Shown here one piece after another: positions 14,189 to 45,877 of a stretch of 45,877 bases of DNA. The position numbers were made by a program, and so were the translations under genes. The notes under the pieces were generated by a model. That model saw nothing but the letters and a program-made list of their open reading frames with translations, did no database searches and was not told the DNA's origin. Origin of the DNA: Clostridia bacterium (lineage in GTDB: Bacteria > Bacillota > Clostridia > UBA1381); NCBI GenBank assembly GCA_017935675.1, contig JAGBHE010000002.1, positions 1 through 45,877 of the forward strand. The letters run 5' to 3'. How positions within the stretch are numbered: position 1 is the stretch's first letter; each line of letters opens with the position of its first letter.

Positions 14189-16402
14189 TTATACGCCTTC
14201 CAAAAACCTGTCAACCACAAGCTGCCGAAACCGGGGCGAAAGGCTTGCAAAATATGCGGTAAATCCCGTTACCCTTACAACAAGGTCGGGATGCAAATCA
14301 GGATTTTCGTTTGCCTCTAAAATTTTCTCTTTATCAAGTATATTTATATTGATAAGTGTTCCGCCCTGACTAAAGTGCCCTTTTATAAACCTCCCTATTA
14401 TCTCAATTCCCTTTTCGTCTGCCGAAAGCCCCGGGTCAAACTCTATCTGCAAGGGTGCTGTATTTCCGTATCCGCACTGTACCGATGCAATTCCGTTTGA
14501 CTGTGCTGTCGGAGCACCATCGGTCCTGAAATGCGGATTAGGATTTGCTCCATGTGATATTGGCTCACCTGCTCTTCTGCCGTTTGGTGTTGCTCCGACC
14601 TTTGAGCCGTACTCAATGGTTCTTGCCCAGGAAAACCAACCGGGAACGAGGCATCTGCCTTTTGGCATCTTCTGATTTTTAATATTCCTTACCCAACATT
14701 CTGTAAGGCGTTTTGCCCATTTATCAGAAACAGAATTACCCTCGCAATATTTAGGTGAGCTGTTTAGAATAAGCCTTGTTCTTTCATCTTCAAAGTTATT
14801 TCGGAGTGCGTCATAGACATCATCCCAAGTAAGCACCTTCTCATTTTCAACTCGTGTTTCAAGAGCACCAAAGCTGTCTGCAACAACTGCAAGCCCTGCA
14901 CCGTCAACACCTACTGTGTAAAGAGATGCACACTTTGAAATATCCTCGCCCAGCTCTAAAGTGTTTTCCATCATAAGATTCATAACAAGCTCAGGCGTAA
15001 CCTCTGCCTGATGGTCAATATGAAGGTTTATTCCCTTTGCCGTTATGTCTATTGCGAGCTTTAAATGCTCCTCCCAAAGCTCTAAAAGTCTTTGTGTACT
15101 TCTGTTTTCTTCATTGCGCATTTCATTTAAAGCAACTTCAAAAACCTTTGCAACGTTAATTTTAACTGTGTCATTCATCGGGAATTCTTTTCCCGGAACG
15201 CACATCCAGTTGCAGCCAACCGCAATTCGCTCTCTTGCAGTCTTTTTATCAACGCCGTTTTTCATATAGCCCTCTGAGAGTGCCTTGTCATTACAGAATC
15301 TGGGCCAGCCGTTTTTGTTCTTCAAAAGATAATATACGGCTTTTTTGAAAAACTCCTTATCGCAGTTTTCATGAACTCTTACAGTTAAATTGCAGGCAAT
15401 ATTTATGCTGTCTGCCGCTTCCAATATGAGGTATGACAGGTGATTTGTCATATCCTTATCATTTTCGTCCACGCCTGAAATCTGATAATAATGCGGATCT
15501 ATCAAAAGCAGATTTGCGATTAAAAACTTTGCCTTTTCGTCATCTAAAATACCCGCCTTTATATCCCTTTCATAGTAAGGATACAAAATAGTATCCATCT
15601 GGAAGCCTGCACCGTCACGGGTGCATACTCTTGACGCGCAGTTGAAAAATGCAGTCCACTGGCAAACCTCATGAAAGGTTTTCGGAGGATTTAAGCGAAC
15701 ATTTTCGCAAGCTGTCAGCATATTTTCAAGGCTTTCCTTAATCTCCGGTCTATCCTCTGTTTTCAGCAATTCTTTTATCTTTTCAATGTGTCTGTCAATA
15801 AATCTGATTATCGCATAAACCGTTTTTTCCTCAGCATTATAAAAATCAGATTTTTCGGGATTTTTATTTCGGAACTTTTCTATTTTTTCCAAAAGTCCGC
15901 CAAAGCCAAGCTCAAAGCCAATTCTATAATCACAAGCAAGGTGAGCATCACTGTCTATGCCTGTTTGAATATTGTACTTTTCCTGAAGCGGCTTTAACTC
16001 ATCATATGGAAACCTCTGCTCATCCCAGCGTTTACTCCATTGGTCTGTAGCACTTGCCATAAGCTCCATAATTTTCGGTTTCTTTTTAAGCCAATCGGGG
16101 AGATAGTGAACATCACCGCGGTAGTTTACAAGCATATCACGCCATCTTCCGCAGAGCATTTCCATCGGATCAACGTAAGGCTCGTGGGCATCCATTACAC
16201 GGCAAAAGTTCTCAGCCATTCCGTCATAGCCGTAAAAACTGCCGTTTGAGCTGTTGTACCAAGGCTCAACCTCATACCCTTCTGAAATCGGAACTGTTCC
16301 GAAGTCATCAAGATCGGTATATCCGTTTTGTTTACGCTTTTCAATGGTATGTTTTATCTTTGTTTTGCGCATCGAGTTTAGTCTGTCTGCGTATGAAAGC
16401 AT
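14189..16402 (-). CDS. Glycyl radical enzyme of an unassigned pyruvate formate-lyase-like subfamily
   Basis: A 737-residue cytoplasmic radical enzyme, close to usual family length. The glycyl radical loop is intact near the C-terminus (VRVTGFTAYF, Gly713), as are general landmarks such as GATPNGRRAGEP and PRFCND. The radical-relay cysteine is probably Cys397 in AVGCNWMCVPG. This motif is odd: eliminases and dehydratases (glycerol, choline, hydroxyproline, isethionate enzymes) have GCxE at this point, and pyruvate formate-lyase has adjacent cysteines, but here the residues after Gly-Cys are Asn-Trp-Met-Cys. The substrate is therefore probably not a standard one. The ATG at 16402 has AAGGAG about 10 bases upstream and lies 62 bases inside the activase gene. 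No microcompartment or aldehyde dehydrogenase gene is nearby. The neighbours (three sugar dehydrogenases and a TIM-barrel isomerase) point to a sugar-derived substrate. Confidence 0.88.
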   Translation of the reverse strand: MLSYADRLNSMRKTKIKHTIEKRKQNGYTDLDDFGTVPISEGYEVEPWYNSSNGSFYGYDGMAENFCRVMDAHEPYVDPMEMLCGRWRDMLVNYRGDVHYLPDWLKKKPKIMELMASATDQWSKRWDEQRFPYDELKPLQEKYNIQTGIDSDAHLACDYRIGFELGFGGLLEKIEKFRNKNPEKSDFYNAEEKTVYAIIRFIDRHIEKIKELLKTEDRPEIKESLENMLTACENVRLNPPKTFHEVCQWTAFFNCASRVCTRDGAGFQMDTILYPYYERDIKAGILDDEKAKFLIANLLLIDPHYYQISGVDENDKDMTNHLSYLILEAADSINIACNLTVRVHENCDKEFFKKAVYYLLKNKNGWPRFCNDKALSEGYMKNGVDKKTARERIAVGCNWMCVPGKEFPMNDTVKINVAKVFEVALNEMRNEENRSTQRLLELWEEHLKLAIDITAKGINLHIDHQAEVTPELVMNLMMENTLELGEDISKCASLYTVGVDGAGLAVVADSFGALETRVENEKVLTWDDVYDALRNNFEDERTRLILNSSPKYCEGNSVSDKWAKRLTECWVRNIKNQKMPKGRCLVPGWFSWARTIEYGSKVGATPNGRRAGEPISHGANPNPHFRTDGAPTAQSNGIASVQCGYGNTAPLQIEFDPGLSADEKGIEIIGRFIKGHFSQGGTLININILDKEKILEANENPDLHPDLVVRVTGFTAYFASLSPRFRQLVVDRFLEGV

Positions 16403-17153
16403 ATTTTTTCAGCTCCTTCATATATTCCGCTGACGGAATTTCAAATTCAGTTATATCTTTCTTTAATGCCTTTTGCTTTGCTATCCCTAAAGGATGATAG
16501 GGCAAAAGCTCATATTCTTTGACATTTTCCAGTGTTTTTAAAAATTCTGAAATTTTATCCAATTCCTGATCTATATCAGGAATTATAGGTGTTCTTGCAA
16601 TTATCGGTATTCTGAGAGAATTAAGGCTTTCAAAATTTTCTTTGATTATCTTATTTGAAACACCTGTATATTTTTTGTGCAAATCATCATTCCATATCTT
16701 CAAATCAGCCATTACAAAATCAAGCTTTTTGAAGATCTCTTCATCAAAATATATGAGCGATGTTTCCATTGCACAGTTTATATTGTTTTTCTTGCAAAGC
16801 TCAATCAGTTCTCCTGCAAATTCCTTTTGTGCCATGGGCTCACCGCCGGAGACAGTAACACCGCCGTTATCAGCAAAATACGGTTTATCAAGTATTATTT
16901 GTTCAAATACTTCCTGTGCAGTCATTTCTTTTCCGCAAACAACCTTTGCTCCCGAATAACAGCCCTCACTGCATTTGCCGCAGCCAATGCACTTTTCGGG
17001 ATATTCCATTATCTCCTTTTCAAAGGAAATACATTCGGGGTTATGGCACCAAAGACACGAAAGAGGACAGCCTTTTAAAAACACAGTTGTACGTATTCCG
17101 TCACCATCATGAAGCGAGGTTCTTTGAATATCGGCTACAAGTCCCTTAACCAC
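16341..17153 (-). CDS. Glycyl radical enzyme activating enzyme (radical SAM)
   Basis: A 270-residue radical SAM activase that abstracts hydrogen from the partner's glycine. The SAM cluster motif is CPLSCLWC (Cys29, Cys33, Cys36), followed by one ferredoxin-type motif CIGCGKCSEGC (Cys55, 58, 61, 65) and a SAM-binding VSGGEPMAQ. Activases of eliminase-type glycyl radical enzymes usually carry two auxiliary cluster motifs and the formate-lyase activase none, so the single one is unusual. The start is a GTG at 17153 with GAGGAAA upstream, overlapping the previous gene by 8 bases. Its 3' end contains the ribosome site and first 62 bases of the glycyl radical enzyme gene, which implies translational coupling. 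Pairing with the adjacent enzyme is secure by context. Confidence 0.88.
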   Translation of the reverse strand: MVKGLVADIQRTSLHDGDGIRTTVFLKGCPLSCLWCHNPECISFEKEIMEYPEKCIGCGKCSEGCYSGAKVVCGKEMTAQEVFEQIILDKPYFADNGGVTVSGGEPMAQKEFAGELIELCKKNNINCAMETSLIYFDEEIFKKLDFVMADLKIWNDDLHKKYTGVSNKIIKENFESLNSLRIPIIARTPIIPDIDQELDKISEFLKTLENVKEYELLPYHPLGIAKQKALKKDITEFEIPSAEYMKELKKYAFIRRQTKLDAQNKDKTYH

Positions 17154-18249
17154 GGATTATTTCCTCTTTTCCGCTTTTTGCGCTCTTTATTGCAGCATCC
17201 AATATTGCCATAACCTCCATATTCATATCAAGGGTAAGCATAGGGTAAATATCTTCACCGGCCGCAATATGATTTGCATACTGACAGGGCATATTTTTAA
17301 ATTTATCCGTAAACTCAATTTCCGGAATTTCAACTTCGTTTCCGTAAATATCAAACGCCTTAACATCAGGTTCGTTTTCTGCACCGCCGGTACACATAAT
17401 TACGCCGTCTGTACAAAGCACCATCGGGCCTGACGGAATTACAGCTCTCGGTGTTGTCCATGTTCCCTCTATAACCGACATTTTGCCGTCATACTTAATA
17501 GCCGCCGCAAAGTTATCGTCTGTATCGCCAAAGGGTGTGTTCAGGTTTGCACCCATACTGATTATGCTTTTTGCGCCCTCACCCATAAACCAACGGGAGA
17601 AGAAGCAGCCATAGCAGGCAATATCTAAAAACACTCCGCCGCCAAGACTTTCCTTATGCCACCATGTTTTTCCTCTTTGCTCGTCTGTCATTTCCTCGGC
17701 ATTATCAGAAACGCCTCTGTGCTTTGCACCCTTGCCGAGAGGTCCTGTGTGGCCGTTTATGTATCTTAACTTTATCGGCTCACCGACTAATTTACTGTCA
17801 AGCGCCGCCTTCATTTTCATAACATATTCACGCCAAACAACAGGCCAGTTTACAACAGCTTCAATGCCGTATTTATCGACGCTTGCTTTTATTTTGTCAG
17901 CCTCCTTCAAGGATACTGCTATCGGCTTTTCAATCGACACATTTATCCCGCGCTTTGCACATTCCAAAACCACTTCAGGCTTCTGACAGTTCTCGGTTAG
18001 GATAAATGCAATATCCGGCTTTTCTGTGTCAAGCATTTCTTTGTAATCTTCATATACATTGGAGCAATAATTATCCTTTACATTCTGCAAATTCCACTTT
18101 GGCGTATAACGAAGCGGCGGAATTTCCTCCGCCCCTGCAGACGGAACATCGGAAACTGCCAAAAGCTCCATATCATCTCTTTCGCTTATGTACAACGCAA
18201 CTTCGTTTACATGCATATGTGAAAAACCTATTATAACTGCTTTTATCAT
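17146..18249 (-). CDS. Gfo/Idh/MocA-family oxidoreductase with non-canonical motifs
   Basis: A 367-residue NAD(P)-dependent sugar dehydrogenase-like protein. The N-terminal Rossmann fold starts at residue 1, but the usual GxGxxG loop reads IIGFSHMHV. The EKP motif is present (Glu107-Lys108-Pro109), so the catalytic lysine is kept, whereas the D-x3-H motif of the substrate domain reads FLDIACYG, with no histidine. It may act on an unusual sugar, or with altered chemistry. GGAGGAG precedes the ATG. The gene overlaps the previous one as ATGA and the activase by 8 bases, so expression is tightly coupled. Substrate unknown. Confidence 0.82.
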   Translation of the reverse strand: MIKAVIIGFSHMHVNEVALYISERDDMELLAVSDVPSAGAEEIPPLRYTPKWNLQNVKDNYCSNVYEDYKEMLDTEKPDIAFILTENCQKPEVVLECAKRGINVSIEKPIAVSLKEADKIKASVDKYGIEAVVNWPVVWREYVMKMKAALDSKLVGEPIKLRYINGHTGPLGKGAKHRGVSDNAEEMTDEQRGKTWWHKESLGGGVFLDIACYGCFFSRWFMGEGAKSIISMGANLNTPFGDTDDNFAAAIKYDGKMSVIEGTWTTPRAVIPSGPMVLCTDGVIMCTGGAENEPDVKAFDIYGNEVEIPEIEFTDKFKNMPCQYANHIAAGEDIYPMLTLDMNMEVMAILDAAIKSAKSGKEEIIRG

Positions 18250-19325
18250 TGCAACTCCTCCGTAAATACCTCACGGCCAAGCTCTGCCGAACGATAAAAA
18301 AGCTCTATTATTTTTGTAACATTTATGGTTTCTTCAGGTTTTATAATAAGCTCTGCTTCACCTTTTAAAACTTTTCTCAAATTATCTGCAATATACATAT
18401 GCCCTGCAAAAGGCGTATCATAAGGACATTTTTCTGATTTTAATATTTCTTCGTTTTCTTCACCGCTAAGGACCTTCCCCTCCGGCAAAAAGATACCCTT
18501 TTCCTTACAAACTAATTTTATATCGGCACTTTCCGGCATATTCGTTGCCCAAGCAACCTTAAAGGAAACCTTTGCACCATTTTCAAAGGTAATCATTCCG
18601 CAGGAAAAATCTTCTACATCCATTTCTTCAGGGTCAAACGGTCTGACGCTGTCCACCTGCCCCGTAAGTGCTCCGCTTTTTGAAAAAGAGCCGATTTCAT
18701 ATTTATGATTTTGCATAGCCGTCGCACTTACACTTTTAACCTTTGGGTTTCCCATAAGCCATACAATAGCGTCAAGCATATGTACTCCAATATCTATGAA
18801 TGCCCCTCCGCATGAAATTTTCTTTATATGAAATGTACCCCACGCCGGTGTTCCTCTTCTGCGTGTCCTCGACAATTCTCCGTAATAAAAGTTTTCAAGA
18901 CGATTTTCCTCAATATACTTCTTCGCCGCCATTCTGTCAGGAGTGAACCGCATACTTTGACAGGTCACCAATATTTTATTATTCTTTTTCGCACAGGCAA
19001 ACATTTCTTCTGCATCCTTGACAGAAAACGCAAGAGGTTTTTCGCAAAGAACATTTGCCCCGCTGTTTAAAGCCATAAGAGTATACTGCTTATGATAACA
19101 ATTTGGTACACAAACCGAAACAATATCCGGCTTTTCCTTGTCAAGCATATCCTGCGCATCAGTATACCAACTCAATATCCCGTGTCTTTCCGCCGTATCC
19201 CTTGCAGCTTTTTCGTTTATATCACAAACAGCTGTTATTTCATAATCCTCGCTAAAATGTTTGAATGCCGGAATATGTGCAGAATTTGCAATCATACCGC
19301 AGCTTATTATACATACCTTAAACAA
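18246..19325 (-). CDS. Gfo/Idh/MocA-family oxidoreductase, canonical
   Basis: A 359-residue dehydrogenase with an N-terminal Rossmann domain (CIISCGMIANSAHIPA loop), the EKP motif (Glu95-Lys96-Pro97) and the second-domain DIGVH motif (Asp178, His182). Of the three family members in this operon it is the only one with all standard catalytic residues, so it is the best candidate for a working sugar or inositol-like dehydrogenase. Translation appears to start at a TTG (19325), since AAAGGAGG lies 9 bases upstream and no ATG is suitably placed. It overlaps the isomerase gene by 8 bases and the next oxidoreductase by 4. Family members oxidise sugar hydroxyls (often C1, C3 or an inositol carbon). 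The position here is unknown. Confidence 0.85.
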   Translation of the reverse strand: MFKVCIISCGMIANSAHIPAFKHFSEDYEITAVCDINEKAARDTAERHGILSWYTDAQDMLDKEKPDIVSVCVPNCYHKQYTLMALNSGANVLCEKPLAFSVKDAEEMFACAKKNNKILVTCQSMRFTPDRMAAKKYIEENRLENFYYGELSRTRRRGTPAWGTFHIKKISCGGAFIDIGVHMLDAIVWLMGNPKVKSVSATAMQNHKYEIGSFSKSGALTGQVDSVRPFDPEEMDVEDFSCGMITFENGAKVSFKVAWATNMPESADIKLVCKEKGIFLPEGKVLSGEENEEILKSEKCPYDTPFAGHMYIADNLRKVLKGEAELIIKPEETINVTKIIELFYRSAELGREVFTEELQ

Positions 19326-20088
19326 GAAGCCCTGCCTCCTTTAAAAAACCTAATGTTTCTCCGTCTTTCTTTGTTGCTCTGTACTCAAGACCGATATATC
19401 CGTTATATGAGGTCTTTGAGATTTCTTTGAGTATTGATACATAATCAACCTTGCCTGTTCCCGGTTCGTGTCTGCCCGGTGCATCTGCTATATGAAAATG
19501 CCCGATTAAATCAATGTTTTCTTTTACCTCGTCAATGTCAAAATCACCCATCATATTCTGGTGATAAATGTCATAGAGCATTTTAATGTTTGGACTGCCC
19601 GCTTTCTTTAAAAGCTCAAACACAGGCGCAGCGTAAGGCATTGAATACCCGACTCTGTCGATATTATTAAGCGGTTCAATTATCAAAGTAACATTTTCCT
19701 TTTTAACAACAGGCTTCGCTGCCAAAAGGCATTTCAGAACATTTTCCTCGCAGTATTCCTTATGCTCACCAATTAAAACTATCATAGCCTTAGCACCAAG
19801 CTTTTTGTATACAGGAATACTTTCGGACAATGCCTTCAAAAAATCATCAACTCTGCCGTCATTTAATATCCCTCTTGACAAGTCATAAGAAAGCTGTTCA
19901 TCTTTAGAATCAATGTTAAAAACAGAAACATCCATTCCGCTTTTAATTACTTTATCAATATCCTTATTTGTCCATTTCCAGAACTCTATTGTATCTATAC
20001 CGCAATTTTTTACCTCTGCAAAACGTTCATAAAAATCACAGTATGAAAACATCATGTCAACGCAAGCACTCAACTTCATAATATCCAC
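19318..20088 (-). CDS. Sugar isomerase/epimerase, hydroxypyruvate-isomerase-like TIM barrel
   Basis: A 256-residue protein of the xylose-isomerase-like TIM barrel superfamily. Recognisable blocks are IIEPLNN, MLYDIYHQNMMGD, GHFHIADAPGRHEPGTG and YIGLEY, the pattern of hydroxypyruvate isomerase and 2-oxo-tetronate isomerase relatives; the Glu, Asp, His and Glu of these blocks form the metal site. The open frame starts at a GTG (20088) with GAGG 6 bases upstream; an ATG three codons later (MKLSACVD) is the alternative. Gene pairs of Gfo/Idh dehydrogenase and this barrel type catalyse oxidation followed by isomerisation or beta-elimination in C-glycoside cleavage by gut bacteria, a useful analogy but not proof. 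It overlaps both neighbours. Confidence 0.82.
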   Translation of the reverse strand: MDIMKLSACVDMMFSYCDFYERFAEVKNCGIDTIEFWKWTNKDIDKVIKSGMDVSVFNIDSKDEQLSYDLSRGILNDGRVDDFLKALSESIPVYKKLGAKAMIVLIGEHKEYCEENVLKCLLAAKPVVKKENVTLIIEPLNNIDRVGYSMPYAAPVFELLKKAGSPNIKMLYDIYHQNMMGDFDIDEVKENIDLIGHFHIADAPGRHEPGTGKVDYVSILKEISKTSYNGYIGLEYRATKKDGETLGFLKEAGLLV

Positions 20089-21349
20089 TCATATCCTCAT
20101 AATTATCTTTCATTTCGTATGTAAGCCTCTCCCAATCTGCAGGTGCATCACCCATATCAGGAATATCCATAAGCTCTCCGCCCTTTAATGCTGACTCGTG
20201 AGCAATCAGTCCCGGTATCATATATCTTGCACTGTCCCATGCATTGTTCGGAGGAAGCTTTCCGCTCATAACCGCACGAACAAAGTCATCAACCAAGAAA
20301 GGATGTGAATTGTAGTGGCTGAACTTCGGTGTGTTTCTCATTGTTTTCGGAAGTCTGCTTCTGTCCTGAATTGCAGCAAAGCCTTCAATGTACTTAACAG
20401 ATATAGGATCATGCTCCATATCTATTTTTCCGGCTTTTAAATCCTCGTTATATTCGATGGTGTTAATAAGGTGTCCCAAATCCTCAATGTATGGTTTCTC
20501 TCCGCTTGCTGCACCCTTTTGAAAGGTTTGCTTTGTAACAGAGCACTCATACGCACCCTTATCTCCATAAAAGCAAGTGATATATGATGACGGTTTGTTT
20601 ATGCCAACACGTCTGAACTCGTTAATTCTGACAACGCCGCCGCCCGACATCTGAAACAATGCTGTTTCGTTACTGAACGGATTTTGCCAATTGTTTTTAT
20701 CTTCTCCATAAATATTATCCTCATGATTATCGCGAAGCCCCATGCAAGATACCTTTGTCGCATACTCATTGATGGCCGAAAAAATCATTGAAATCGAATG
20801 TGTCGGGTAATACATAGGCGGAATGCCGGCCACCCTTTGCCAATTCGCACCGCCGGAACGGGAAAAGTCATCATACATTTCACAAATGTCATGATAATAC
20901 TGAGCTTCGCCATACACAAATTTACCCATATCACCACTCTTATACTTTTCACGGCAATAGATTGCACATGGGTAATAATAGCAGGTTTCGCCCATCATAT
21001 ATATGAGTCTTTTTTCTTCAACAAGTCTTACAATTTCTTTTATTTCTTCAACAGTACATCCTATAGGAACAGCACTGTATACATGCTTACCGCGCTTTAG
21101 CGCCTCTATTATCATTGGTCCATGAAGATGTCTTTGTGTAAAAACCGCAATGGCATCAAGCTCAGGTGCTTTATCGAGCATCTCCTCATAAGAGTTAAAT
21201 GCTCTTTTTATGCCGTGCTTTCCCATCGAGGTCTTTATTCTGTTTTCGTCAAGGTCAGCTAAAACAACCTCCTCAATATCGGGATGAATCTTGAATAAAC
21301 GAATAAAGTCATCCGAAAATTTCCCCACTCCTGCAAGCCCTAATTTCAT
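20057..21349 (-). CDS. Gfo/Idh/MocA-family oxidoreductase lacking the EKP lysine, first gene of the catabolic operon
   Basis: A 430-residue protein with a clear Rossmann start (LGLAGVGKF) and a family substrate domain, longer than usual at the C-terminus. Where other members have EKP it reads YSAVPIG (Ala93-Val94-Pro95), so the catalytic lysine is absent; a possible acid is elsewhere, for example in YPTHSISM. Subgroups with such changes are known in the family, so it may still be an enzyme. It starts at an ATG (21349) with AAGGAGAGG upstream and a strong promoter 30-60 bases further back. It is the head of an overlapping six-gene set with the isomerase, two other dehydrogenases, the activase and the glycyl radical enzyme. 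Confidence 0.82.
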   Translation of the reverse strand: MKLGLAGVGKFSDDFIRLFKIHPDIEEVVLADLDENRIKTSMGKHGIKRAFNSYEEMLDKAPELDAIAVFTQRHLHGPMIIEALKRGKHVYSAVPIGCTVEEIKEIVRLVEEKRLIYMMGETCYYYPCAIYCREKYKSGDMGKFVYGEAQYYHDICEMYDDFSRSGGANWQRVAGIPPMYYPTHSISMIFSAINEYATKVSCMGLRDNHEDNIYGEDKNNWQNPFSNETALFQMSGGGVVRINEFRRVGINKPSSYITCFYGDKGAYECSVTKQTFQKGAASGEKPYIEDLGHLINTIEYNEDLKAGKIDMEHDPISVKYIEGFAAIQDRSRLPKTMRNTPKFSHYNSHPFLVDDFVRAVMSGKLPPNNAWDSARYMIPGLIAHESALKGGELMDIPDMGDAPADWERLTYEMKDNYEDMSGYYEVECLR

Positions 21350-21368: not shown

Positions 21369-21384
21369 ATGATAAGCTTATTAT
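21369..21384. promoter_or_regulatory. Operator-like palindrome over the catabolic promoter
   Basis: ATGATAAGCTTATTAT is a 16-base near-perfect palindrome (7 of 8 base pairs match) that covers most of the -10 box and the expected transcription start of the glycyl radical operon. A repressor bound here would block the promoter. The neighbouring AraC protein or an outside repressor could be the ligand. No experimental basis. Confidence 0.4.
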
Positions 21385-21408
21385 ACCAATTTAACAGTTT
21401 TATTACAA
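21380..21408 (-). promoter_or_regulatory. Sigma-A promoter of the catabolic operon
   Basis: On the minus strand, -35 TTGTAA (21403-21408), a 17-base spacer and a consensus -10 TATAAT (21380-21385). It lies 31 bases before the ATG of the first dehydrogenase gene and downstream of the terminator of the AraC gene, so the catabolic operon is transcribed separately from its likely regulator. Confidence 0.75.
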
Positions 21409-21450: not shown

Positions 21451-21497
21451 AAAAACAAAAAAAATCAAACCCTTTGCGATAGAAAGAGTTTGATTTT
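21451..21497 (-). terminator. Rho-independent terminator of the AraC gene
   Basis: On the minus strand a 15-base stem (21497-21483 with 21475-21461; one G-U pair) with a 7-base loop is followed by a T-rich run (21460-21451). It begins 4 bases after the stop codon of the AraC gene. Confidence 0.8.
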
Positions 21498-21500
21498 TTA

Positions 21501-22313
21501 TCATTCCTTTTCGGTGAAATCAGCCATTTCTTTAGGTGTTTTCCCATATGTTTTCTTAAAAATTTTGTAAAAATACGGAATGTCGGGCATATTAACCGCG
21601 CCGGCCACTTCCGCAATGCTATACTCTTTAGAATTTATAAGCACAAGAGCCTTTTTCATTCTAAGATAGTTTCTGTATTTTATCGGCGATATATTCTTGT
21701 ATTTTTTAAATAATCTTCTGAAATTTCCTTCACTTGTATGACACATATCTGCAAGCTGCTTTATTGTTACGTCCTCCAAGTAATGATTCTCCAAATACAT
21801 AATCCCTTTATAAATGACATTATTCTTGCTTTTGATTTTTCTATATGTCATTTCGCAAAAAACTTGGTGTATCACCTGATATACCCCTGACAATATCTCA
21901 ATTTCATATCCCAAGGCACCTTTAGACCATATATCAAACAATTTCTCAAACATATCTAAAAATGTTCCGTGCCTGTCGTATGCAACCGTACATATTTTTC
22001 CGGGAAAGGTTAAATAACCATCATCAATTACAAAGTTTAATGATATATATTTTCCTCTTTCACTTGTGTCCCATTGCGATTTATATGTAACATCGTTAGG
22101 CAAAAATACTATTTCATTCTTTTTAACACGCAGCTCATTTTCTGTACCTTTATCAAAAATAATTGAACCATTTACCACATAAAAAAATCTGGAAAACTGC
22201 TTATCGTTCTTTCTGCATACATAAGCATCCGGCGGAATAACCTCTGCAGAATAAACTCCAAAGCTTTTATTTGCAGCTTCAAGTTTATTGATTGAAATTT
22301 CATTTATACTCAT
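21501..22313 (-). CDS. AraC-family transcriptional regulator of the catabolic operon
   Basis: A 270-residue regulator with an N-terminal cupin-like sensing domain (residues about 20-120: YVVNGSIIFDKGTENELRV with basic surroundings) and a C-terminal AraC helix-turn-helix pair (about 165-262: VTIKQLADMCHTSEGNFRRLFKKY and IAEVAGAVNMPDIPYFYKIF). The ATG has GGAGAAAG upstream and a strong sigma-A promoter further back. It sits directly upstream of the glycyl radical operon, separated by its own terminator, so it is the natural candidate to control that operon. The inducer is probably a sugar or pathway intermediate; that is inference. Confidence 0.85.
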   Translation of the reverse strand: MSINEISINKLEAANKSFGVYSAEVIPPDAYVCRKNDKQFSRFFYVVNGSIIFDKGTENELRVKKNEIVFLPNDVTYKSQWDTSERGKYISLNFVIDDGYLTFPGKICTVAYDRHGTFLDMFEKLFDIWSKGALGYEIEILSGVYQVIHQVFCEMTYRKIKSKNNVIYKGIMYLENHYLEDVTIKQLADMCHTSEGNFRRLFKKYKNISPIKYRNYLRMKKALVLINSKEYSIAEVAGAVNMPDIPYFYKIFKKTYGKTPKEMADFTEKE

Positions 22314-45808: not shown

Positions 45809-45877
45809 GGCTCCTCGAGTCCGGCTCGAACGGACGACCCTGCGGTTAACAGCCGCATGCTCTGCCAACTGAGCTAT
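45808..45877 (-). tRNA. tRNA-Asn (GTT), 5' end cut by the window edge
   Basis: On the minus strand, D arm (TAGCTCAGTTGGCAGAGCA), anticodon loop CTGTTAA giving anticodon GTT, T arm GTTCGAGCC, an acceptor 3' strand TCGAGGA plus discriminator G, and encoded CCA at 45810-45808. About six or seven 5' bases lie outside the window. The 3' end faces the locus, the usual side for integrative element insertion. Confidence 0.9.

Follow-up and report, generated by a model that had tools for sequence, protein, structure and literature searches.

What does a glycyl radical enzyme (GRE) do when its gene stands at the end of a chain of overlapping genes for Gfo/Idh-fold and TIM-barrel proteins? This question is raised by a six-gene locus of a Clostridia bacterium (GTDB lineage UBA1381; assembly GCA_017935675.1), located on positions 1 to 45,877 of contig JAGBHE010000002.1, the whole stretch of DNA that was analysed and that is hereafter called the window. 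The GRE encoded there belongs to a single clade whose members carry a Trp at the position where GRE eliminases carry a conserved Glu, and which is linked in the genome to Gfo/Idh genes; we tentatively suggest that prior oxidation of the substrate may stand in for the missing Glu. An earlier, sequence-only reading of the window had placed six genes with overlaps of 4 to 62 bases at 14189-21349, and had named among them a GRE, three Gfo/Idh dehydrogenases and a TIM-barrel isomerase; both the coordinates with their overlaps and, by Pfam matches, the families agree with what is reported here. The genes, in the order of their transcription, and the two radical loops of the GRE are the following.

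20057-21349, minus strand: open reading frame (ORF) of GFO_C, Gfo/Idh fold (Pfam)
19318-20088, minus strand: ORF of the TIM protein, a xylose-isomerase-like TIM barrel (AP_endonuc_2; Pfam)
18246-19325, minus strand: ORF of GFO_B (GFO_IDH_MocA; Pfam)
17146-18249, minus strand: ORF of GFO_A (GFO_IDH_MocA; Pfam)
16341-17153, minus strand: ORF of the activase (Radical_SAM; Pfam)
14189-16402, minus strand: ORF of the GRE, 737 aa, of the GC[NH]W clade (PFL-like and Gly_radical; Pfam)
15170-15217, minus strand: Cys loop of the GRE, G396-D411, GCNWMCVPGKEFPMND, with the thiyl Cys C397, W399, the clade-specific E406, and D411
14261-14275, minus strand: glycyl radical loop of the GRE, RVTGF, residues 710-714, with the radical G713

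From GFO_C to the GRE, successive genes overlap by 32, 8, 4, 8 and 62 bases, lengths that shift with the choice of start, three genes beginning with GTG or TTG. Chance does not account for the set, since in other genomes, too, orthologues of its genes are found near one another.

The GRE scores above the cut-off of two Pfam families (PFL-like, 325.2 bits; Gly_radical, 47.1 bits) and below the cut-off of every NCBIfam equivalog with which it was compared (pyruvate formate lyase (PFL), PflD, HypD, CutC, HpfG, HpsG, 4-hydroxyphenylacetate decarboxylase and indoleacetate decarboxylase), the best score being 225.6 bits against 1000 required. The function of a GRE is usually inferred from its Cys loop. 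Here W399 is found two residues past the thiyl Cys, which is the position of the Glu in the CXE motif of GRE eliminases. Homologues were taken as the best 120 of 1736 and the best 120 of 3011 matches from two protein searches, and all 240 proteins among these matches listed, the window's GRE included, share GC[NH]W, PGxE and RVTGF, thereby replacing CXE by C-N/H-W with Trp at the Glu position. The adjacent catalytic Cys pair of PFL-type enzymes is absent as well, a Gly preceding the thiyl Cys. According to excerpts of an eLife paper on HypD (PMC7077986), GRE eliminases conserve CXE and share its Glu, for which a role as base or as binding residue has been proposed; in most of these enzymes it is the proposed base by which the ketyl radical is formed.

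The same column was inspected in 45 other GREs, where it holds Glu in 42, Ser in two (PFL-type) and Asp in one. The Asp is that of a PFL-like protein (L170:6216-8480) with the motif GCWD, the sole row of this kind among the 45. All 45 aligned members of the GC[NH]W clade have E406, D500 and H617; among the 45 other GREs, E406 occurs in three and H617 in none, and D500 does not figure among the residues listed. In a tree of these 90 rows, built by a quick method with midpoint rooting and with long branches flagged, the Trp group forms one side of one branch (Shimodaira-Hasegawa-like approximate likelihood ratio test, SH-aLRT, 100; stem length 1.89). The GC[NH]W motif served to select the 45 clade rows, and their Trp is therefore given by definition; the real finding is that the Trp rows form one group and that other GREs mostly have Glu.

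Fold comparisons with solved GREs give identities of 16-25%, and the top rows of the fold search (Foldseek, VIA) are tied, the tied best including PflD, CutC and glycerol dehydratase, so that no single relative stands out. In a pairwise alignment to glycerol dehydratase, H164 and D447 are kept as H154 and D411, E435 is replaced by W399, and H281 and S282 are lost; for the residues of glycerol dehydratase other than the Glu we assume the customary roles, the His and the Asp presumably acting on the leaving hydroxyl. In a first structure model the Cys loop (397-411) had a predicted local distance difference test score (pLDDT) below 50, and in a second one, based on a more diverse alignment, the mean pLDDT was 85, with 68 for residues 391-400 and 83 for residues 401-410. 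A dead GRE was ruled out, both radical loops being conserved and an activase gene adjoining, and an aminoacyl radical enzyme of the kind described in the excerpted text of PMC11528403 was ruled out because the radical Gly is kept. That the GRE is a known dehydratase or PFL was equally ruled out by the equivalog cut-offs and the motifs, and the sequence-only reading, which had named a known dehydratase as a refuting result, holds on this point. By every sequence criterion tested the protein is a GRE, yet it falls outside the eliminases and PFL as judged by their defining residues.

The radical-SAM protein, whose gene overlaps that of the GRE and which matches TIGR02494 with 248.1 bits (cut-off 174.35), is likely the activating enzyme of the GRE. 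Activases of the close clade carry one auxiliary ferredoxin-type Cys motif (short form), and most of those in the distant relatives carry two (long form).

The genomic neighbourhood sets the clade apart from other GREs. Using hidden Markov models built from the target loci, which recovered 17 of 17 Gfo/Idh genes known from the rest of this genome, a Gfo/Idh gene was detected within 6 kb of the GRE at 27 of 36 GC[NH]W loci versus 0 of 43 other GREs (Fisher p 9e-14), the latter coming from 40 control regions of the same class that were hand-picked and not random, with two of the 43 rows (L160) possibly representing one gene. For a TIM gene within 6 kb the contrast is weaker (13/36 versus 4/43; p 0.006). 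Addition of 12 loci, two of them from outside the class and eight consisting of contigs under 8 kb, brings the Gfo/Idh count to 28 of 48; some of the loci come from close kin (L054 and L029 belong to one genus). Close relatives show the linkage in 18 of 24 cases (18 of 21 once loci with under 3 kb upstream are set aside), and all 18 have the GFO_A orthologue; distant relatives show it in ten of 24 (8 of 15 under the same restriction), five of the ten being on the same strand.

The linkage extends to genome content. In 291 genomes, with identity thresholds that were set after gaps in the lists were seen and with the best few candidates scored per genome, a close GRE was found in nine and GFO_A (at least 53% identity) in nine; both were present in eight, and each occurred alone once, in G012 and G204, where whichever of the two is present sits at a contig end. 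GFO_B had matches at E 1e-60 in 12 of the 291 genomes, and in 11 of these 12 a GRE of the GC[NH]W clade is present; TIM matches of at least 54% were found in seven, all with a close GRE, which in G043 and G071 lies on another contig. GFO_A is thus the partner of the GRE, being near 18 of 24 close GREs and co-occurring with them in eight of nine genomes each way. TIM and GFO_B genes lie together but away from the GRE in G043, G071 and G275, and two sub-modules therefore co-occur without being neighbours: the tight core is GFO_A-activase-GRE, and the second sub-module is TIM-GFO_B. The sequence-only reading had proposed, as a check, to see whether the same six genes recur in other Clostridia. 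The genes do recur together; only seven of the 24 close relatives (L007, L012, L013, L014, L015, L052 and L056), however, have the full set at a single locus, and a complete six-gene set as a fixed unit is thereby ruled out. Three further close loci (L016, L018 and L053) fall short only of an activase gene, which was not detected beside their GRE.

Several related loci display arrangements of their own. In a distant member a xylose-isomerase-like TIM barrel and a Gfo/Idh dehydrogenase are naturally fused into one protein, encoded directly upstream of activase-GRE (L066:11961-13847), and a protein of the same cluster is encoded near the GRE of L065, on the opposite strand. A distant-clade cassette with the same gene order in two genomes (L062:3736-11735 and L063:1256-9262) comprises an activase, a GC[H]W GRE, a cupin-like protein (below the Pfam cut-off), a phosphomannose-isomerase-like protein, a TIM barrel, a Gfo/Idh protein and a relative of GFO_C. 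Extra Gfo/Idh genes, relatives of GFO_A or GFO_B, precede GFO_A in the GRE loci L007, L015, L017, L019, L055 and L057. At L020:7043-12211 and L021:7054-12211 a GRE of the GCGE type and one of the GCNW type stand in tandem, separated by a single activase gene. A flavin adenine dinucleotide (FAD)-dependent oxidoreductase is encoded beside or near the GRE in L006 (12358-13557; PF12831) and, by similarity, in L009, L010, L015, L065 and L066; this protein was considered as an enone reducer and not adopted, the gene lying outside the operon and its nearest counterpart in this genome being 38% identical and on another contig.

All three Gfo/Idh proteins contain the Rossmann domain PF01408 (GFO_A, 61.0 bits; GFO_B, 103.2; GFO_C, 61.9). 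EKP is the catalytic lysine motif of Gfo/Idh/MocA oxidoreductases; its lysine is kept in 19 of 19 aligned GFO_A and 13 of 13 aligned GFO_B sequences, and GFO_C has AVP where EKP is expected in 15 of 15, the window's protein included. The three dehydrogenases of the sequence-only reading are therefore confirmed as Gfo/Idh-fold proteins and are not certain to be three dehydrogenases, because GFO_C is without this lysine. A DIxCY motif is conserved in GFO_A and a DIGVH motif in GFO_B. Against solved structures GFO_A matches weakly (myo-inositol 2-dehydrogenase, 40.2 bits, followed by DgpA, 35.1 bits); the nearest solved relative of GFO_B is DgpA, a C-glycoside 3-dehydrogenase, with 184.4 bits over nearly the full length, compared with 71.6 bits for the best solved inositol dehydrogenase, and its enzymatic activity is predicted on this basis. 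The TIM barrel, in which E138, D173, H199 and E235 are conserved, is nearest to the hydroxypyruvate/2-oxo-tetronate isomerase group.

We propose, as a reading that is possible though short of probable, that the six genes form one pathway in which a glycan-derived sugar receives a carbonyl through oxidation by Gfo/Idh proteins and the resulting keto sugar is then cut at a C-O bond by the Glu-less GRE. Its observed base consists of the gene order, the protein families, the intact Cys and Gly radical loops, the conserved Trp, the single clade and the Gfo/Idh linkage. In such a pathway the oxidation at C3 would fall to GFO_B, and perhaps to GFO_C; the TIM barrel would isomerise the oxidised sugar, or beta-eliminate to give a 1,5-anhydro-enulose or keto sugar; and GFO_A would adjust the redox state of the sugar. 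The GRE thiyl radical would then abstract a hydrogen next to the carbonyl, which should weaken the neighbouring C-H bond, and the adjacent C-O bond would break, either the ring ether (perhaps opening a 1,5-anhydro ring) or a hydroxyl. Because it adjoins the carbonyl, the hydroxyl beside it would be acidic enough without the Glu base. That the Glu is lost and a Gfo/Idh partner gained jointly (28/48 versus 0/43) is what this proposal predicts, and is the core of the argument. We consider it conceivable, if doubtful, that the clade represents a Glu-independent class of GREs, in which a dehydrogenase-installed ketone takes over the task of the Glu and the GRE opens or dehydrates a keto (1,5-anhydro) sugar.

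Several points weigh against the proposed pathway. Six of the 24 close relatives have no Gfo/Idh neighbour, and of these three have less than 3 kb upstream and L008, L020 and L021 have more. The same holds for 14 of the 24 distant relatives (for seven, if only the 15 with an upstream stretch of 3 kb are counted), and five of the ten positive ones have the gene on the opposite strand. The sequence-only reading had named GRE homologues mostly without these neighbours as a finding that would speak against it; in the close clade it survives, and among the distant relatives this is partly what was found. Two of the nine genomes with a close GRE (G012 and G198) are without a TIM match of at least 54%. 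The best solved match of GFO_A is, weakly, the inositol enzyme named above, and the TIM protein is closer to hydroxypyruvate isomerases than to keto-sugar enzymes, so that a C3 or C4 acid product would also fit. The anhydrosugar step is drawn by analogy, with substrate, bond and product all predicted, and the pocket positions of W399, E406, D500 and H617 are those suggested by the alignment. The exceptions (L008, L020, L021 and the 14 distant members) point to partners elsewhere in the genome, to cut contigs or to other uses of the same chemistry, and they leave room for rival explanations.

One of these is that the GRE is an ordinary diol eliminase with another residue as base, the Gfo/Idh partners only processing the product. 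H154 and D411, which align with the His and Asp presumed to act on the hydroxyl in glycerol dehydratase, the tied fold matches to PflD, CutC and glycerol dehydratase, and the clade-specific acids E406 and D500, which could act as the base, would all suit such an enzyme; it is harder to reconcile with the change of Glu to Trp in every homologue among the 240 matches listed, with the additional loss of the glycerol dehydratase residues H281 and S282, and with the failure to match any known equivalog. Ordinary radical dehydration is less likely because the base of the eliminases is missing, and we judge this explanation unlikely. The same judgement applies to a scheme in which the GRE would split an oxidised sugar or sugar acid at a C-C bond, by a retro-aldol-like, PFL-like or decarboxylating reaction, and the hydroxypyruvate-isomerase-like TIM protein would handle the small keto acid formed.

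Breakdown of a cyclitol or polyol, with the Gfo/Idh and TIM proteins as inositol dehydrogenase and inosose isomerase/dehydratase and with the GRE dehydrating an inosose, seems rather improbable. It draws on the GFO_A match to myo-inositol 2-dehydrogenase and on weak matches of the Gfo/Idh proteins to the inositol 2-dehydrogenase model TIGR04380 and of the TIM protein to the IolO and IolE models, but all these model matches remain far under the cut-off (the best being GFO_B, 95.7 bits versus 355), GFO_B is closer to DgpA than to any solved inositol dehydrogenase, and glycoside-hydrolase-type genes are found in the window and in some related loci. Finally, the GRE and the Gfo/Idh-TIM genes might have separate functions and share a polysaccharide locus by chance, as the variable gene order and the GREs without partners in L008, L020, L021 and more than half of the distant members would allow. 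Given that none of the 43 other GREs has such neighbours, that the co-occurrence holds with genes on other contigs and that five junctions overlap, this is very improbable.

The surroundings of the operon contain the following features.

21501-22313, minus strand: AraC-type regulator (Pfam), relatives of which adjoin GFO_C in several homologous loci
21459-21499: terminator-like stem, between the AraC-type gene and the promoter-like site
21380-21408, minus strand: promoter-like site TTGTAA-17-TATAAT 5' of the six-gene unit, a consensus match only
45811-45877: tRNA gene, cut by the window end

Sites of these kinds are about equally frequent in shuffled sequence (promoter-like, 37 in the region versus 28 expected; terminator-like, 4 versus 7 expected), and the Rfam scan of the window gave no match except the tRNA. 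Other window genes encode an ABC transporter with solute-binding protein, a two-component system and proteins of glycan type, among them a GH39-like and a CBM9 protein. The sequence-only reading had noted that no microcompartment or aldehyde dehydrogenase accompanies the set, which is borne out: microcompartment shell and aldehyde dehydrogenase families had no match among the 18 other larger window genes scanned, two of which have no family match at all.

No description of the GRE clade or of the GRE-Gfo/Idh pairing was found in the literature searched, which took in neither subscription papers nor preprints, and nothing there combined Gfo with glycyl radical, in keeping with the sequence-only reading, to which no described pathway with this set was known. 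The pathway is hidden in present annotation because the named members, 16 of the 240 matches listed, bear the source-given name formate acetyltransferase or pyruvate formate lyase family protein. Record titles of 7 of 16 clade carriers name a ruminant gut sample; in addition, we take three RUG records to be from rumen and one 'Lapin' record to be from rabbit. Among named species, Qingrenia yutianensis carries a GRE that is 83% identical to the window's. A deep, many-membered Trp clade with ties to Gfo/Idh genes indicates a GRE chemistry undescribed in the literature searched; with it, the question whether oxidising the substrate first can make up for an absent active-site base becomes directly testable. 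If the proposal is true, it would amount to an anaerobic, phosphate-free route for plant-glycan sugars that is widespread in herbivore gut Clostridia, with bond-breaking chemistry new for the GRE family.

The operon combines elements of several known systems. In known oxidation-elimination, as given in excerpts of the literature, a Gfo/Idh enzyme acts at C3 and a TIM protein performs beta-elimination to 2-hydroxy-3-keto-glycal or 1,5-anhydro-hex-1-en-3-ulose, and some systems continue with hydration and reduction. The DgpABC, O-glycoside beta-eliminase and levoglucosan pathways rely, in the portions of their descriptions consulted, on Gfo/Idh oxidation at C3 and a metal-dependent TIM protein, as would the present set with its DgpA-like GFO_B; those portions show no GRE, whereas this operon has one. 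Unlike DgpABC, the operon has a TIM protein of the hydroxypyruvate-isomerase group and no DgpB-like small subunit, no further minus-strand ORF of at least 80 aa being found inside the operon, to which the search was limited. GFO_C resembles the NAD-dependent glycosidases of GH109 in having VP at the EKP position and, when aligned to 6t2b (40.6 bits), a matching YPTH segment; the GGHGG loop named in the title of a GH109 paper is absent from its translation.

With the GRE eliminases (glycerol and propanediol dehydratase, CutC, HypD, IslA and HpsG) the GRE has in common the fold, the thiyl Cys, the glycyl radical loop and the activase; it differs from them in the missing CXE and in its conserved E406, D500, N607 and H617, which the 45 other GREs have seldom or not at all. 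PFL is likewise without a Glu two residues past the thiyl Cys, but possesses the Cys-Cys pair and has a cut-off of 994.2 bits (TIGR01255), against which this GRE scores 77.9 bits. The closest chemical precedent for the proposed ring opening is given by YbiW and PflD, GREs that, in the excerpted text of a review, open 1,5-anhydroglucitol-6-phosphate or 1,5-anhydromannitol-6-phosphate to 1-deoxyfructose-6-phosphate. Both are about 20% identical to this GRE and act, according to the same excerpts, on phosphates made by the phosphotransferase system; and where PflD has the Glu of CXE, the GRE described here has a Trp and Gfo/Idh partner genes.

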